DNA from: Scytalidium lignicola
Taxonomy: Eukaryota; Ascomycota; Leotiomycetes
Direction: 5' to 3'
NCBI GenBank assembly: GCA_002812745.2
Contig: NCSJ02000212.1
Location: 1-64,000 of the forward strand
DNA: 64,000 bases
Positions 1 to 13,755 of this stretch are shown here, piece by piece (the stretch's first letter is position 1; each line of letters begins with the position of its first letter). Both the position numbers and the translations under genes were made by a program. The notes under the pieces are model-generated. The model did not search any database, had not been told where the DNA came from, and saw only the letters and a program-made list of their open reading frames with translations.

Positions 1-2043
1 AATTCAATGTTAGCTTCATCTGAATCAGATATATCAGAGGAAGGGGAATATTTTGTATTGTAGGATTGGTGAAATTGATTAATTTTTTCTATGGGAAACG
101 CATACNAAAAACGTAAAAAGTTTCACTCGCTTCGTGGTTTCACTCGCATCCTCCGACTAGGAGGGGACGACTAGAAATGAAGGCCGATTAAGCGAGCCGA
201 CGATTATAAGAAATTGAAATATTACAGACCAGTAAAACGCCAAGACAACAGATGTGCAACTTTTGGTTCCAACCGGGGATCTACAGTAAAACAACAAGCT
301 TATATACGCGGATAAAATAATAGGATAAGAAAAGAACTGTTTAAATTGAACTAATCTGTCCATTCAATAATATGCTGTGAATACCCATAAACACTATATT
401 AAATTTTCTCGTGCTAGTTCGTTTCAGTTCACATGAACGCTTCCGAGGGCTCAGTTCGACGCACCCCGATAAATCAAGAGAGAAGAAATCCACACCCGAT
501 GCTTCGACATCACTGCAGTTATTGTACCATCTTCACGGTGTCCAAGCAGAATTGTACCGACAAACAGCTCTGCACTGCAGCAGATGTCTGTGGCAAGGTA
601 CGGCTCGAGAGTATGAAAAATTGTTAAGGCCTCGAAAGTCCCTTTCCGGAGTGATCAGGGGCTATACCGGGTGCACATCCTTTCCGTTCAGTACAATACT
701 GCAAAATGGGATAATGGAGTAGTAGGGCAATGGAACAAGCAAAACCTTTGAGTTCAACGTCCCTCGGGATCTCACAGGGGAAGAAGTACTTGACTAAAGT
801 GACACCCTCTAACTAAGGCCCACCCTACCGCGGATGACAACACCCCAAATTTTACATCACAACAGATCCTCATCACAGCCTCACTGCTTCTGCTGTCCTG
901 ATTCCCCAAAACCGTAACACTTTCGAAAAACTTGAGCACGTATTGGCTTTGCAGCATGTTAACCTCTAAGAGATTCATAGAAGCCCTCCTGTTATACTCT
1001 TTCATAAAGCGTAGATCTCTGCCGCCCCCAAATTATATGTTCACCGTCCTCCTCCAAATCTCAATTTTCTGTACAATGCAGAATGACTTCCACTGACACG
1101 AGCACCATCGCTCGATCAGATTGCGGTCATCGAAAATTATCTTGCATCGCCACCCCACGCTTCTCTTGTCATTCTTCCCTTAGAGATCAGACAGATGATC
1201 TGGAAATATGTGCTTAGAGGTCATACAATTCATCTGGGCTTTCACCTGGATTATATAAGTCGTGAGGATAATCCTGAATTGTGGAAGTTCTATCTCATAG
1301 GTTATAAATGTTTAGCATTAGATCCAAGTATCTGTAGAAAATATTACGGTGGACGTAATCTAACATTTCGCCTGTCCTACGAGGCTCTTGTGCTATTTGT
1401 TGTTAGTAGATTATTGTCTTTGTTGGTAGTTTATAAATAGATGTAAGTGACGAATACAATTCTTAGATACTTTATGATTTATATTAAGAATTATATATTT
1501 TTTTTGTCTACGAAATATTCAGAACACAATTTTTATATTCTATTATGTGAGTACTGCGGCCTGTCATGGGTTTAGCGACCCCTCCACTTTAGGAAAGGCA
1601 CGCATACGGACCAGCCGCCGCTTTCACCATTCTATAAAGCTCGCGCCTGCCCCTCCTACCTCTCCTCAACCATTTTAACCTCTTCACTTCCTTGCTTGAC
1701 CCCTCAACGCTTCTTCTCGCTCGATTGCACGGCTGCCTAGTCTTGCTCATACGCTGTCAGGCGCCCTCTTGCCCAGACTCACTTCTCAATTCAACTGCAT
1801 GTGGAAAATGCACCAATGGCATGACTTGCTCAGCCGCTCCAAATTCGATATGTTTCAGTGAAGATCGTGGTCATTTATTTATGGTTAGTGGAGAACTTCG
1901 TGCTCCAAATTTGGAATGGGCCGGAAGATTATGACATATATTACACGTAGAAGCAGCGAGCAGGCGCTTGCTTCTATACTGTGGCATTCAGAAGTCCAAT
2001 AGCTCGAATCCGTTCTTGCCGCAGACGCGACGTGCAAGGAGAA
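1..2043. other. Intergenic stretch, no supported gene
   Basis: No recognisable gene. The first 63 bases read on the plus strand as an acidic, serine-rich peptide (SESDISEEGEYFVL) ending in TAG, which could be the tail of a gene or transposase starting outside the window. An 81-codon frame at 1195-1440 has no recognisable motif. A single N lies before an A run near 106. The last 450 bases become pyrimidine-rich, as fungal promoters and leaders often are, ahead of the HET gene. Confidence 0.6.
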
Positions 2044-3879
2044 ATGCATTCAGCCTATGCTTACCGGCCGCTGGCTAAGGCACGAGCGGAGATCCGGCTG
2101 CTCACGTTAGACCATCTGCCCACCGCGCTCAGAGAGGTTCACGCCGAGCCTCAGACTCGACGCCAAATTTCAGGCTCACTCAGCCATGTCTCTCTCGACG
2201 AACGGCCTTCCTACAAGGCACTCTCTTATGCATGGGGAGCTCTGGCGTCCCCGAGGTATCCGATCCTGGTTGACGGCGATACCGTAATGGTCACACAGAA
2301 CCTCCATGAGGCATTAGAGTTGATCCAAACGCTTCCCCGCATGCCTGCCCTTTGGATCGATGCAGTCTGCATTAACCAAGCAGACGACGAGGAGAAGCGC
2401 ACGCAGGTGCCCTTGATGCATCGCATTTACGGCGAAGCAGAAGAAGTTCTCATCTGGCTCGGTCCTGCGGCGGACCAAAGTACCGAAGCCATTCGACTTC
2501 TCGTCGGCTGGGCATACAGATTTGCGGCTTTCCTTGAAGAGCATGGCGTTGAGGGCGTCTACCCTGATACGCCACTACGAAAACTCATGCTCCAAATCAC
2601 AGACGGCTTCCCGGTAGCCCTATGGATTCGGCCGGTCACGAGATTGTTCGCACGACCATGGTGGCGCCGTGTCTGGGTCATGCAGGAGGTCATACTTGCA
2701 AAGAGTGCGATCATTTATTGCGGTGATGTCGCGGTTGCCTGGAACGACATTGAGTGGGTTATCGAGATGTTTTCGTATCCAGATGCCTGTAACGGCCTGG
2801 ACGTCGTGGCACTTGCGCTGCCGATCTGCCAGCGCGCCCATCTGAGGAGGCTGCGTCTCGACTACCTCGGCCGCTATCGGGACTGGGTACCCGGGCTGAC
2901 CTGGGAGGAGCTGCTCAGTATCACTTGCGAATGGCCTTTTATGCCCGAGGCGACCGACGAGCGCGACCGCATCTATGGTCTCATGGGCTTGCTGCTAGAG
3001 GAAGACCGCGTCAACGTACCGGTAGACTACTCCAGTGAGTCGACGGTGGCAAGAATAGCTTTTGACGTGAGCTGTATCGTGATCGGACGGACAGGCCCAA
3101 GATGCATGATCTACTGCAACGACGCGCGCCCGCGGCCCTCTGGCCTTCCCACTTGGGCTCCAAACTGGTATTCCTGCCAATCAGGGAATTTTCGAGCCTG
3201 GAACGACGTTTATGATGCTGCCAAGGGCACGACCTGGACCCCCAGGCTACTTTCCATGTCATTCGCGAATCCAAAACTCAAGCTGAGGGGAGTACTAGTA
3301 GGTCATATCAGAAAGACTTTGACAAAGGATGCGAGATCGTCTTCCGATAGCAAGCCGACATTGCAGAGTTTTCGGTCATGGGAATCCGACCTGGCCTCTA
3401 CTTTGCGGGAAACAGCGGATCGGGGAGGTACAGGGACCGCTGCGAGCTTCTGCGACAGGTTGTGGTGGCTCGCCGTAATGGGCATTCCATCCTCAGGCCG
3501 TTGGCCTGTTACTGACTTTGAGCGAAAACAACTGCTGGCCGCATACGAGGTTTTCGTGGGGATCAGACAGCCCCCCGACTCTTTGGATATTGACAAGCGT
3601 CATGACTGGTATGAAAAAGAATCCGCGCTCTACCGCAAGGCTCTCAAATTCGACAAATATCGCCTGTTTGTGACTTCGAATGGATACCCTGGGCTGGGGC
3701 AGGCAAGTGTCCAAGTGGATGACAGAGTTGTAATATTCCAAGGCTGCTCCGTGCCGTTCACGATACGCCAACAGGAAGATGGCGATTACCATTTGACCGG
3801 ACCTTCTTATGTCTTGGGTGTTATGGATGGGGAAGCGATGGAAAATGGCCCGGACTTCCAGGAAATTGTCCTGGTTTGA
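2044..3879 (+). CDS. HET-domain (heterokaryon incompatibility) protein
   Basis: Single-exon gene of 611 aa. The HET domain (PF06985) is clear: YKALSYAWG at residues 57-65, LWIDAVCINQ at 103-112, then a region with VWVMQEV, and DERDRIYGLMGLL further on. Family members act in non-self recognition and programmed cell death after hyphal fusion, but many have no assigned role, so the exact function here is unknown. The ATG at 2044 is preferred because the protein then opens with an N-terminus typical of HET proteins (YRPL..AR.EIRLL). An in-frame extension back to a GTG at 1981 lacks an ATG and reads as arginine-rich leader. No NACHT, ankyrin or WD40 region follows; the C-terminal half is family-typical and uncharacterised. 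It sits beside an AT-rich transposon block, a common setting for HET genes. Confidence 0.9.
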   Translation: MHSAYAYRPLAKARAEIRLLTLDHLPTALREVHAEPQTRRQISGSLSHVSLDERPSYKALSYAWGALASPRYPILVDGDTVMVTQNLHEALELIQTLPRMPALWIDAVCINQADDEEKRTQVPLMHRIYGEAEEVLIWLGPAADQSTEAIRLLVGWAYRFAAFLEEHGVEGVYPDTPLRKLMLQITDGFPVALWIRPVTRLFARPWWRRVWVMQEVILAKSAIIYCGDVAVAWNDIEWVIEMFSYPDACNGLDVVALALPICQRAHLRRLRLDYLGRYRDWVPGLTWEELLSITCEWPFMPEATDERDRIYGLMGLLLEEDRVNVPVDYSSESTVARIAFDVSCIVIGRTGPRCMIYCNDARPRPSGLPTWAPNWYSCQSGNFRAWNDVYDAAKGTTWTPRLLSMSFANPKLKLRGVLVGHIRKTLTKDARSSSDSKPTLQSFRSWESDLASTLRETADRGGTGTAASFCDRLWWLAVMGIPSSGRWPVTDFERKQLLAAYEVFVGIRQPPDSLDIDKRHDWYEKESALYRKALKFDKYRLFVTSNGYPGLGQASVQVDDRVVIFQGCSVPFTIRQQEDGDYHLTGPSYVLGVMDGEAMENGPDFQEIVLV

Positions 3880-9699: not shown

Positions 9700-10747
9700 C
9701 TCCTCCAGCTTCTACCTACCCACTGGTTTGCGATTCTTAAGCAATTGCTTAAGGATCTGCCATATATTTTCAATTGGATTTAAATCAGGGGATTGAGAAG
9801 GTCAATCAATTGACTTGATATGGCACTCTATTCGAATTCCATTATATATCCCTTTATTTCTAGCTGTATCCTTTTTGCCATGCACACGGCTGTTATCCTC
9901 CACACACCAGTATGTCCTTGGTGTTTTATACCCTTTCTTCAGATTCATGAATATCTCCTTCAGTAGCCTTTGAAGGATTTGCTTTGCATACTTCTGCAGT
10001 GTAAATCCTTTGCTTTCTCCCTCATATAAAACAAAATAAAGCTCTGATTTGTAGTTATACCAAATAGCAGCTTATGCTATAATAGATTTATAGCTAGAAT
10101 GGAAAGTGAATTGAATACAATCAAGCTTTTGCCTTTTACCTCTTGCTTTGAGTAATCGCTAGCGTTTGAGCATATCTGTGCATATAATGGTTTCATTTGT
10201 ATATATTTTATTTTTCCAATACCAAAGTGGCCGATCTTAATTTGTAATACAAAAAGTCTATTGTAATAATCTATTCTTTATGGAGGTTCTAGGCTTGCAA
10301 TCAGGGATATGGTAATGATATCCAAAACGTGCTAATGCTTTCAGAATTGTATTTCAAGATACATTCAAATTGAATTCCTTTTTAATTTGCTTAGAAGAAA
10401 GGATTCGTCGATCATAATGGCCAGTAAACCAATGGATAATTGCAAGGACTGTAGAATCAGGAATACTTCTCGGTCGGCTAGTTGATTTCTGTATGCGATC
10501 TCCTATTTTGAGCTATCCTTGAGCTGTTGAACGTGGTATTTTCAATTCTTCAGCTGCATGCTTTTTAGAATAACCATCTTGGACTTTGGTTTTAAAGCGT
10601 ACACGTGTAGGAGTATCCCAAGCCATAAAAATGTATATAAATAAGGGAGAAAGGATAAAGTAAACAATGCGTGATTTTAAAAGCGGCAAAATATTAGCTT
10701 TACCGGCTTGCATGGGGGTGCCGAATCATTTCTGACACCCCCTTACG
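9700..10747 (-). mobile_element. Truncated Tc1/mariner DNA transposon
   Basis: Relic of a Tc1/mariner element. The intact end is at 10747: reading inward on the minus strand it begins CGTAAGGGGGTGTCAG, next to a TA dinucleotide (10748-10749), the target used by this superfamily. Just inside the end, a second inverted repeat (GGGGGTG / CACCCCC, arms 10714-10720 and 10736-10742) flanks a short loop. The transposase relic fills most of the element. The opposite terminal repeat is absent; the sequence stops at the LTR ending at 9699. The same terminal repeat bounds the MITE at 35965-36206. Confidence 0.75.
9712..10626 (-). pseudogene. Tc1/mariner transposase pseudogene
   Basis: The likely start is the ATG at 10626, opening MAWDTPTRVRFKTKVQDGY, followed by a helix-turn-helix (SKKHAAEELKIPRSTAQG). 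After an in-frame TAG (a Trp codon in the expected frame) the HTH_Tc3/DDE region continues recognisably (DRIQKSTSRPRSIPDSTV, FTGHYDRRI). Near the end come WCVEDNSRVHGKKDTARNKG, with the second catalytic Asp, and PSQSPDLNPIENIWQILK, the hallmark DDE/D C-terminal motif. The Trp before PSQSPDLNP is a TGA. Frame breaks and nonsense codons make it inactive. TGG to TAG fits a CpA change; TGG to TGA does not. Confidence 0.85.
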
Positions 10748-11002
10748 TACATCTGAAGCCCCTGTCCTGGATACATTAGATTGCCCTCCTCTTATCTCGC
10801 TACTTCATTCAACATTTAAAAGGGTCGTTGGCCGAAGGAGATGGTGCTGGAGGAGTGGTTAGTAAGTTAAATTGGGACTGGCATAGGGGTGATTGGTGTT
10901 AGATGCGCGCGGCATTAAAAAATATTATGGCACCCAATTAAATAGTTGTACTCCATAACATTGTTCCATAACTTCATTCTTAACACCAAACGTGTCAACA
11001 AG
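10748..11002. other. Spacer between transposon relic and tRNA gene
   Basis: About 250 bp with no coding content and no recognised promoter element. A tRNA gene needs only its internal A and B boxes. Confidence 0.5.
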
Positions 11003-11127
11003 GCCCGTTTAGCTCAATGGTAGTGAGTATCCACCTCCTCAAAAAAGAAAAGAATTCCATAACTAACCGAAACAGGAGCGCGTCACTAGTAATGACGAGG
11101 TTGCCGGTTCGATTCCGTCAATGGGCA
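11003..11127 (+). tRNA. tRNA-Thr(AGU) gene with a 53-nt spliceosomal-type insert in the D-arm
   Basis: Removing 11023-11075 leaves a 72-nt cloverleaf: acceptor GCCCGTT/AATGGGC (one G-U), D-stem GCTC/GAGC, anticodon stem CGTCA/TGACG with loop CTAGTAA (anticodon AGT at 11088-11090), variable AGGTT, T-stem GCCGG/CCGTC with loop TTCGATT, and discriminator A at 11127. One T-stem pair (C50-U64) is mismatched. The A box (TAGCTCAATGG) lies wholly upstream of the insert and the B box (GGTTCGATTCC) downstream, so Pol III recognition could survive. The insert is not at the canonical 37/38 position cut by the tRNA splicing endonuclease; it sits between the D-loop and the 3' D-stem strand. Whether mature tRNA is made is unknown. 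The T-stem mismatch allows for a decaying copy. Confidence 0.85.
11023..11075 (+). other. Spliceosomal-type intron inside the tRNA gene
   Basis: The 53-nt insert begins GTGAGTAT (a fungal 5' splice site), contains CTAAC at 11063-11067 (branch consensus, branch A 9 nt from the end) and ends ACAG. Excising exactly GT to AG restores all four D-stem pairs and a 72-nt tRNA. The length matches the protein-gene introns in this window (47-222 nt, many 49-60). This is a reading of splice signals; no RNA evidence was available. Confidence 0.75.
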
Positions 11128-11130
11128 TTA

Positions 11131-11136
11131 TTTTTT
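11131..11136 (+). terminator. Pol III T-run terminator of the tRNA gene
   Basis: TTTTTT begins 4 nt after the tRNA discriminator base, the normal place for RNA polymerase III termination. It supports a genuine tRNA transcription unit. Confidence 0.75.
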
Positions 11137-12209
11137 GTTGGATTATAATTTTTTCCTCTTGATTTTTTTCTAGTATCTCTTTCTAGGAGATGTATCAGGT
11201 TTCTTTTCTCTTTATTTATTCGATATGATTTTATTTAACTAGCTAGATTCGGTAGACTAAATTTACGCTTAAGATATCCGAGTTGTAGTAATCTATGGAG
11301 AAGAGTAGGGTGTCTTGTTCATTTTCTTCTTTGCATTAGCTTTTACTATTCCGTTTATACCTTCTCGAATATCATCGAAGGATTGGGATAATATGTTGTA
11401 CTTCTTAAGGAGTTTGAAATAACAGCCAAGGATAAAATGCGCAAAAGCCAATAAATCGAATAGATTTCTTATTAGTTTCAAGAGAATGTGGTCATATACG
11501 ACGAACCGTTGGAGAAGTACGAGAAAGTGATGAAGGAGCCGAATTAAACGAAGAAATACGAAAACATATCGAATTATATGCTTGGGCTCTAAATGAGGGA
11601 AATCAAGGCCAGGGATGGTTAAGGGATATATGGAATAACACGTAAGATGGGGATTCGCTAGCCTGCATCGCTTTTAGCATACTCCGTAGTTATGCTGTGT
11701 TCAGGAATAGCCTAAGTAGGGTATTGCAGGTTTGCGACAAGAGTTGTACGGTACAGTACATACACACCTCCAATATTGGTGCATCTCGATCATTTTCCAT
11801 GAAAGAAGAAATAGGCCAAGCTCCAATACAATCAACTATATATTCCATCCATCTTTTTTCTCGATTGACAGTTGTATGCGCGAAGCCGCTAGTGAGCTAC
11901 GCAAAGTGATGGGATTTGTTTGTTTCATTATTTCCCAAGAATGGACGGACGTCTTCAAACATCGGCCTGTAGCCTTCAAGTACGTGTTACCTAGCACTAC
12001 TCGAAACTGTTGATACCCGTTTATCTGTTGAGTACTCATACAACAGAGGAGTGAGTTGTATACATTCGTATTTATCTCCTTGAGTTATTCCCCTCTCTCT
12101 CTGTTTAGACTTTATATGCCATTGAAAGACGATAAACTCGTATCTCCTTCATTTCTAAAAGAAGAGGAAAAATCTATAACCATTTCTACCTCAATTTTCA
12201 ACACCAAAA
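11137..12209. other. Intergenic stretch
   Basis: No supported gene. Short frames at 11293-11481 and 11697-12039 overlap on opposite strands and show no domain. The last 150 bases form the leader of the aspartic protease gene. Confidence 0.5.
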
Positions 12210-13755
12210 ATGTTATCTCATACAACTATCATCACGATAGTTCTGCTTGTTTTACAAGTCATAGAAGCAAGAAATATCCCAGTAGCTTATTCGAGGAGCA
12301 CCACCATCGAGCATACTACTACTCCAATCAAGGCTACTAGAGAAGCAATTGACTACATCCCCACCAGTTCTAATGTACTCACCCTCAGACACACAAGATC
12401 TACTCCAGGAGGAGGCAAAAAGTATCGCAGTGCCGCACATATCTTTGGACACATCCCAACTACAAACCACAGCTCAACCTTGATCTCACTCCTCCAAGGA
12501 GGTGAATTTGCAACCGACATAAAACTCGGGACCCAGACATTCGAAGCTATTGTCGACACCGGTTCCAGTGATACGTGGGTCGTCCAAAGCAGCTTTACAT
12601 GTCTCCGTATCGCAACAGGACAGCCCTGGCCGGCGTCCAATTGTGGATTTGGGCCGACGTATACGATTGATAGTTCCTTCACGCCGATTCTGGATGTGAA
12701 CTTCAACATCAGTTATGGTAGTGGGCAGTTCTTAACGGGGGTCTTTGGGAGAGAGGATGTTACGTTGGCGGGGATTGAAATTAATCAGCAGATTGCTGTT
12801 GTTGATCAGGCAGGCTGGCAAGGAGATAATTCGACTTCTGGTCTTATTGGGTTGGCGTATCCGGCGATGTAAGACTACCGCTATTCTCCATCATCTCCAA
12901 GTGTTTTTTTTTNGTTTTTTTTGTTGCGAAAAATGGTTCATTCACTGACTGTTTCCTATAGTACAGATCAATATGCTGGTACGGATCCAACAGTTGATAA
13001 CACTGATCTAGCACCCCAAATACCCTACTGCCCGATCTTCCAGACGATGGTTGAGCAAGGGCTCGTGTCCGACCTTTTCAGCCTCGCCATCCTGCGCAAT
13101 GTTGATGGCCCGGCTGGGTATCTGGCTCTAGGTGGCGTGCCACCTCTTGATTTTGAGCAGAATTTCACCAGCACACCGATCTTGATCACACATATACCAC
13201 AGTATCCCATTGGATATGATTTTTATACGATTAACACGCAAGGAATCTACCTGGACGGCATAATGGTGTCTGGATCAGGAGATGATGTGCAGTATATTGT
13301 TGGAATTCCACTTCCTTCTTTCACAATGATGGTGTGCCTTGCGTAATAAAGCTCTAACTGATGTTTCTCAGGTCGATTCCGGCACGACGCTGGCTTACCT
13401 GCCGCCGCTCATTACCTCCGCTATAAATGCCGCATTCAATCCACCAGCTATATTTTCATTCTGGTATGGGATCTACATCGTTAACTGCAATGCCACAGCT
13501 CCGCCGGTATCTATTAAAATCGGTGGCGTAATGCTGAATATCAATCCTGCAGATATGATATTTGTTGCAGGGACAGATCTGTTTGGCCAGAAGCTCTGTG
13601 CTAGTGGGGTGACTACTGGAGGACAGGGACCATATATTCTTGGAGACACTTTCTTGAAGAATGTGGTTGCGGTTTTTGATATTGGTGCTGGAATGATGCG
13701 GTTTGCGGGGCGTGCCTATTATGAGTCTAATAATTTAGGTGGCGGTCTGAGGTGA
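12210..13755 (+). CDS. Secreted pepsin-like aspartic protease (A1 family)
   Basis: Three exons: 12210-12868, 12962-13298 and 13372-13755, giving 459 aa. Residues 1-20 form a signal peptide (hydrophobic TIITIVLLVLQVIEA), followed by a propeptide-like region. The two catalytic motifs of a pepsin fold are intact: VDTGSSDTWV with Asp116 and VDSGTTLAYLP with Asp334; YGSG of the flap follows the first. The second intron splits the gene exactly before VDSG; its donor is GTTGGA, weaker than usual, but only this choice keeps the family sequence (DVQYI-VDSG) in frame, with CTAAC at 13354. Intron 1 contains an N within a T run. Potential N-glycosylation sites fit secretion. The likely role is extracellular or vacuolar protein digestion; the substrate is unknown. 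Confidence 0.9.

Follow-up and report, generated by a model that had tools for sequence, protein, structure and literature searches.

In the genome of the leotiomycete Scytalidium lignicola we identified eight tRNA genes, on six contigs, that share an uncommon anatomy: each is split in the D-arm by an insert of 48–60 nt that starts with GTRNGT, contains CTAA with the branch A 9–15 nt before the end and terminates in YAG. From these sequences we infer the transcription of the genes, the excision of the inserts and the route by which they arose. The inserts are very probably genuine U2-type spliceosomal introns within tRNA genes, probably acquired by reverse splicing, which the spliceosome would excise from Pol III pre-tRNAs.

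One of these genes, encoding tRNA-Thr(AGU), lies in the window, the whole stretch of 64,000 nucleotides that was analysed. The window is part of contig C125 of a genome assembly of 46.85 Mb in 664 contigs that may be without some genes. The parts of the Thr gene are the following:

11003..11022, + strand: tRNA-Thr(AGU) exon 1, tRNA positions 1–21, identical to the C510 gene
11010-11020, + strand: A box TAGCTCAATGG in exon 1
11023..11075, + strand: 53-nt mRNA-type (GT-AG) intron between tRNA positions 21 and 22; the site is empty at C510 and the only genome match is the intron itself
11023..11028, + strand: 5' splice site GTGAGT of the intron
11063..11067, + strand: branch-site-like CTAAC, with 9 nt from the branch A to the intron 3' end
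11073..11075, + strand: 3' splice site CAG of the intron (the insert ends ACAG)
11076..11127, + strand: tRNA-Thr(AGU) exon 2, tRNA positions 22–73, with the D-stem 3' strand, the anticodon arm, the T-arm with the B box and the 3' side of the acceptor
11131..11136, + strand: T6, a Pol III terminator-like run

The original prediction had described a 53-nt insert in the D-arm of this gene, and its coordinates and the order GTGAGT...CTAAC...ACAG proved exact, the intron boundary being ambiguous by one G. It also held that removal from GT to AG leaves a 72-nt tRNA-Thr(AGU), which is borne out by the identity of the spliced 72-mer to an uninterrupted tRNA-Thr(AGU) gene at G000:C510:141753-141824 (72/72) and by ARAGORN, which called the spliced sequence as tRNA-Thr(AGU). 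On the unspliced gene, ARAGORN made no call with default settings and returned a spurious Ser(CGA) when introns were allowed; an Rfam scan of the whole window gave no matches at the gathering score. Among the 127,880 53-mers of the window (both strands), YAG together with CTAA at 8–16 nt was found in 0.11% and a GTRNGT start in 0.14%. All three signals were combined in one 53-mer, which must be the Thr insert since that insert meets all three conditions.

The window contains other features around this gene. A repeat at 9800-10753, which ends 250 bases before the tRNA and is probably a transposable element, holds 53 of the 56 listed matches (68–93% identity; 40 of 98 candidates scored). An aspartyl protease gene in several ORF pieces lies directly downstream of the tRNA (12180-13755), and a HET-domain (heterokaryon incompatibility) gene occupies 1951-3879.

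The seven further split tRNA genes are those for Pro(UGG) (four), Arg(UCU) (two) and Cys(GCA). Both Arg genes (C129 and C555) were first found by an Rfam tRNA search of the genome, in which 63 of 2,176 first-look candidates were scored and the 55 matches listed are a lower bound; 14 of these 55 fall on the tRNA-dense contig C648, taken to be mitochondrial. We also searched the whole genome for an A box with GTRNGT within 10 nt. This pattern gave 58 matches and its reversed form 78, so by itself it is not enriched. Inspection covered every one of the 58 places, C555 being a locus known already, and a filter on acceptor and T-stem pairing was passed by 6 of the other 57: the window Thr gene, Arg C129, Cys(GCA) on C643 and three Pro(UGG) genes on C532 (copies a, b and c). 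A fourth Pro gene, on C399, was added by looser inspection, and no tRNA body was seen in the remaining 50 pattern loci. The pattern matched all eight split genes; five of them (the four Pro genes and Cys) were new, and for the inserts of these five GTRNGT had been required by the search. Since the pattern prescribed nothing but the A box and GTRNGT, and the filter nothing but acceptor and T-stem pairing, the branch site, the 3' site and the restoration of the D-arm are independent of the search; a random 53-mer has YAG with CTAA by chance with a probability of about 0.0011. The search covered this form of the A box, a GTRNGT 5' site and insertions near the D-arm, and further split tRNAs may therefore exist. 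A second pattern, with a longer A box followed by a 5' splice site, gave 16 matches against 27 for its reversed form. These are not counted here as split genes; G000:C24:9876-9897, which looks most tRNA-like, and the 15 other places are possible further cases, and one match, on C648, is probably mitochondrial.

The borders of the inserts are set by tRNA structure, and excision at YAG restores the D-arm in all eight genes. The insertions fall between positions 21 and 22 (Thr, Pro), 23 and 24 (Cys) and 25 and 26 (Arg), none of them at the canonical 37/38, and our reading is that the eight inserts go back to no fewer than four insertion events, at three positions. The branch-like site reads CTAAG in Cys, and both Arg inserts have the form GTAAGT...CTAAT...TTAG; an Arg(UCU) gene on C262 has the same sequence around the junction without the insert. 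After splicing, ARAGORN called seven of the eight genes (Thr AGU, Arg UCU, Cys GCA, Pro UGG three times, and Arg C555 as Lys TTT) and found nothing in Pro C399; before splicing, it gave none of the eight its true identity. Exons are intact in six genes (Thr, Arg C129, Cys and Pro a–c), which have A and B boxes and form a cloverleaf once spliced. T-runs follow the Thr gene and the three intact Pro genes; at Cys C643, whose spliced body is identical to an uninterrupted gene on C93 (72/72), a T-run is found only further downstream and not directly after the gene. An artefact of the assembly, a draft with some N bases, or plain chance is hardly credible as a source of the same anatomy at eight loci on six contigs.

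Two of the eight genes are decayed. Arg C555 (L071:101-219, G000:C555) has lost a D-stem base, its anticodon now reads TTT and its T-loop is changed, and Pro C399 has lost the 3' side of the acceptor. Both keep their splice signals, and the signals alone are thus no proof of current use.

For comparison, we predicted six coding introns in two genes of the window by threading proteins on the DNA. These gene predictions gave introns of 50, 52, 55, 56, 125 and 222 nt, and the tRNA inserts are similar in length to such coding introns of the same genome, four of which measure 50–56 nt. Three of the six 5' sites are GTAAGT and thus of the GTRNGT type, the others being GTTAGT, GTAATG and GTATGC, and CTAA lies 8–25 nt from the end in two of the six. 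The strict consensus is matched more closely by the tRNA introns than by these few coding introns (n = 6).

The original prediction had raised the possibility of an introner-like family, which the genome search does not support. Inserts in four tRNA types of one genome would agree with the spread of an introner-like or some other mobile element through tRNA genes, but the Thr insert matches only itself, and with the Arg and Pro queries the only matches are paralogous tRNA genes. Between tRNA types, nothing in the introns aligns except the signals, and with a single G ambiguous at the borders there is no sign of a target duplication. We consider such a spread very unlikely.

Ectopic introns of the tRNA type, excised by the tRNA splicing endonuclease, are also an improbable reading of the inserts. 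A report on Cyanidioschyzon merolae (PMC3978253) describes tRNA introns outside 37/38, including in the D-loop, and pairing at our junctions is partly of the kind required: the Thr intron comes close, with 3 of 4 central and 3 of 3 outer pairs in register 1, and both Cys in register 0 and Pro c in register 1 have 4 of 4 central and 1 of 3 outer pairs. The C. merolae introns are, however, described there with a bulge-helix-bulge, and a simple pairing count, under which a relaxed motif is possible, found no complete one in the five of our eight introns tested, in two registers each. The endonuclease would, moreover, leave the mRNA-type signals GTRNGT, CTAA and YAG unexplained in all eight.

The case for function depends mainly on Pro(UGG). 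For Thr, Arg and Cys there is in each case also an uninterrupted gene, so their inserts need not be spliced; function may be supported more weakly by the fact that the Thr, Cys and Arg C129 bodies are clean. No uninterrupted Pro(UGG) gene was found: the contiguous 29-base Pro sequence from D-arm to anticodon has no match in the genome within three mismatches, and an exact match to the 16-mer that covers the D-stem 3' strand and the anticodon arm was seen at four loci, each of them interrupted. One-mismatch places on C188 and C642 may hold additional copies, split or not. With the spliced Pro 72-mer as query, the genome gave alignments of separate exons only, at the three C532 genes; since C399 escaped this search, its sensitivity is limited. 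The three C532 copies are intact, and each still has, once spliced, a 17–19-nt intron in the anticodon loop (37/38).

The exons of Pro a and b are identical at 71 of 71 positions (position 38 left out), while their flanks lie in the shuffled range, with an identity of 0.50 upstream (shuffled mean 0.49) and of 0.63 downstream (shuffled mean 0.59, maximum 0.70). Over the full length of the D-arm introns, identity is 0.64, above the shuffled maximum of 0.58, but the part between the 5' site and the branch is 0.54 identical, a value reached by 25 of 300 shuffles; for the other five Pro pairs the same part is 0.46–0.52 identical, reached by 65 to 221 of 300. The anticodon-loop introns of a and b are 0.85 identical (17/20), and thus not all neutral-looking sequence of the pair is randomised. 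In copy c, 3 of 71 exon bases are unlike those of a and b, and two of these turn pair 4–69 from C–G to T–A, a compensatory change in the acceptor. In the Arg pair C129/C555, the exons are 0.95, the intron 0.68 and the flanks 0.70–0.73 identical, and the part from the 5' site to the branch is 0.55 identical, reached by 20 of 300 shuffles. The combination of near-identical intact Pro exons, an intron interior at the shuffled level and persisting signals points to selection for splicing.

mRNA-type splice signals normally act in Pol II transcripts, and their presence would suit read-through of the tRNA loci by Pol II, with splicing serving a longer transcript and not tRNA production. The intact exons, the compensatory acceptor change and the T-runs after Thr and the three intact Pro genes point instead to selection on the tRNA, and all four located Pro(UGG) loci are split. 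Read-through as the purpose of splicing thus appears improbable. It seems somewhat more likely than not that all cytosolic tRNA-Pro(UGG) in this fungus has to pass through the spliceosome as a Pol III transcript, that a single pre-tRNA is thereby handled by two unrelated splicing machines, the spliceosome for the D-arm and TSEN/ligase for 37/38, and that spliceosomal introns have repeatedly been gained by tRNA genes through reverse splicing.

Where the original prediction left open whether the Thr insert is processed by the spliceosome or has killed the gene, the eight inserts with their signals and the split but intact Pro genes strongly favour processing for the class, and for the window copy both readings stand. 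An insertion may have disabled this one redundant gene, nothing being spliced and C510 supplying Thr(AGU), a possibility that we rate seriously, if below an even chance. C510 carries the uninterrupted Thr(AGU) gene and a second Thr(AGU) copy with a canonical, 10-nt intron in the anticodon loop; such intact genes elsewhere had been proposed, together with the lack of a spliced product, as the sign of a dead copy, but the window body is without decay. A Thr(AGU) relic on C455 (L006:220-281, G000:C455) has window-related flanks and retains an anticodon-loop intron, its 5' half being deleted, and this loss in a flank-homologous copy also agrees with a disabled gene. The T-stem mismatch C50–U64, which had been taken to keep that option open, is present in the uninterrupted C510 copy as well as in the window Thr and is therefore no sign that the window copy is dead. 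The flanks of C125 and C455 are 14–15% diverged and those of C125 and C510 are at the shuffled level; the identity of the C125 and C510 bodies despite this speaks against a dead copy and is consistent with selection or with recent gene conversion, which could also account for it. The window insert has, in addition, all the splice signals, like those of the intact Pro genes. Continued function of the window Thr copy appears, on balance, mildly favoured.

Under the spliceosomal reading, the split genes would be transcribed by Pol III from their intact A and B boxes. The spliceosome would recognise GTRNGT, CTAA and YAG and excise 48–60 nt from the D-arm, and in transcripts that also contain a 37/38 intron, as for all Pro(UGG) copies, the tRNA splicing endonuclease and ligase would remove that one. 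The inserts probably originated from excised introns that were reverse-spliced into tRNA transcripts, followed by reverse transcription and recombination or conversion. In each of the four insertion types the first base of exon 2 is G; this and the lack of target duplication beyond one G fit reverse splicing and are no proof of it. For U6, considered as a further Pol III target, the best match covered 113 bases for 105 model positions, with no large insert (47 of 3,539 candidates scored).

The splicing of nuclear tRNA introns is taught as a pathway of its own, carried out by protein enzymes. The canonical introns, at 37/38 and cut by TSEN, likewise interrupt tRNA genes and are present in the same Pro(UGG) genes; the D-arm introns differ from them in sitting elsewhere and in carrying GT-AG and branch-like signals. 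A precedent on a Pol III RNA is the U6 snRNA intron of Schizosaccharomyces pombe, which is described in PMC10484740 as mRNA-type with reverse splicing as its proposed origin; there the RNA is a spliceosomal snRNA, and here tRNAs of several types are affected. Short spliceosomal introns are also described, in PMC8527467 and PMC11889510, from ascomycete and lichen rDNA, and a 57-bp lichen intron placed in yeast rDNA was excised from the rRNA. These introns are likewise short, ectopic and in RNA genes outside Pol II transcription; there the transcripts are Pol I rRNA and here Pol III tRNA. Fungal introner-like elements are a proposed source of new spliceosomal introns; we found no repeated intron family here. 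We found no report of mRNA-type introns in tRNA genes in the open-licence literature, and work in subscription journals may exist.

ARAGORN missed or misnamed all eight unspliced genes and the Rfam tRNA model was silent in the window, so more such genes may be hidden in other fungi. The split tRNAs offer short substrates for testing intron gain by reverse splicing, with uninterrupted counterparts for three of the four types. If the reading is true, the spliceosome would be seen working on Pol III pre-tRNAs, and genes that need both pathways would link the supply of tRNAs to the capacity for mRNA splicing. The eight genes suggest that in Scytalidium lignicola the machine that splices mRNAs may also have to cut pieces out of tRNAs.
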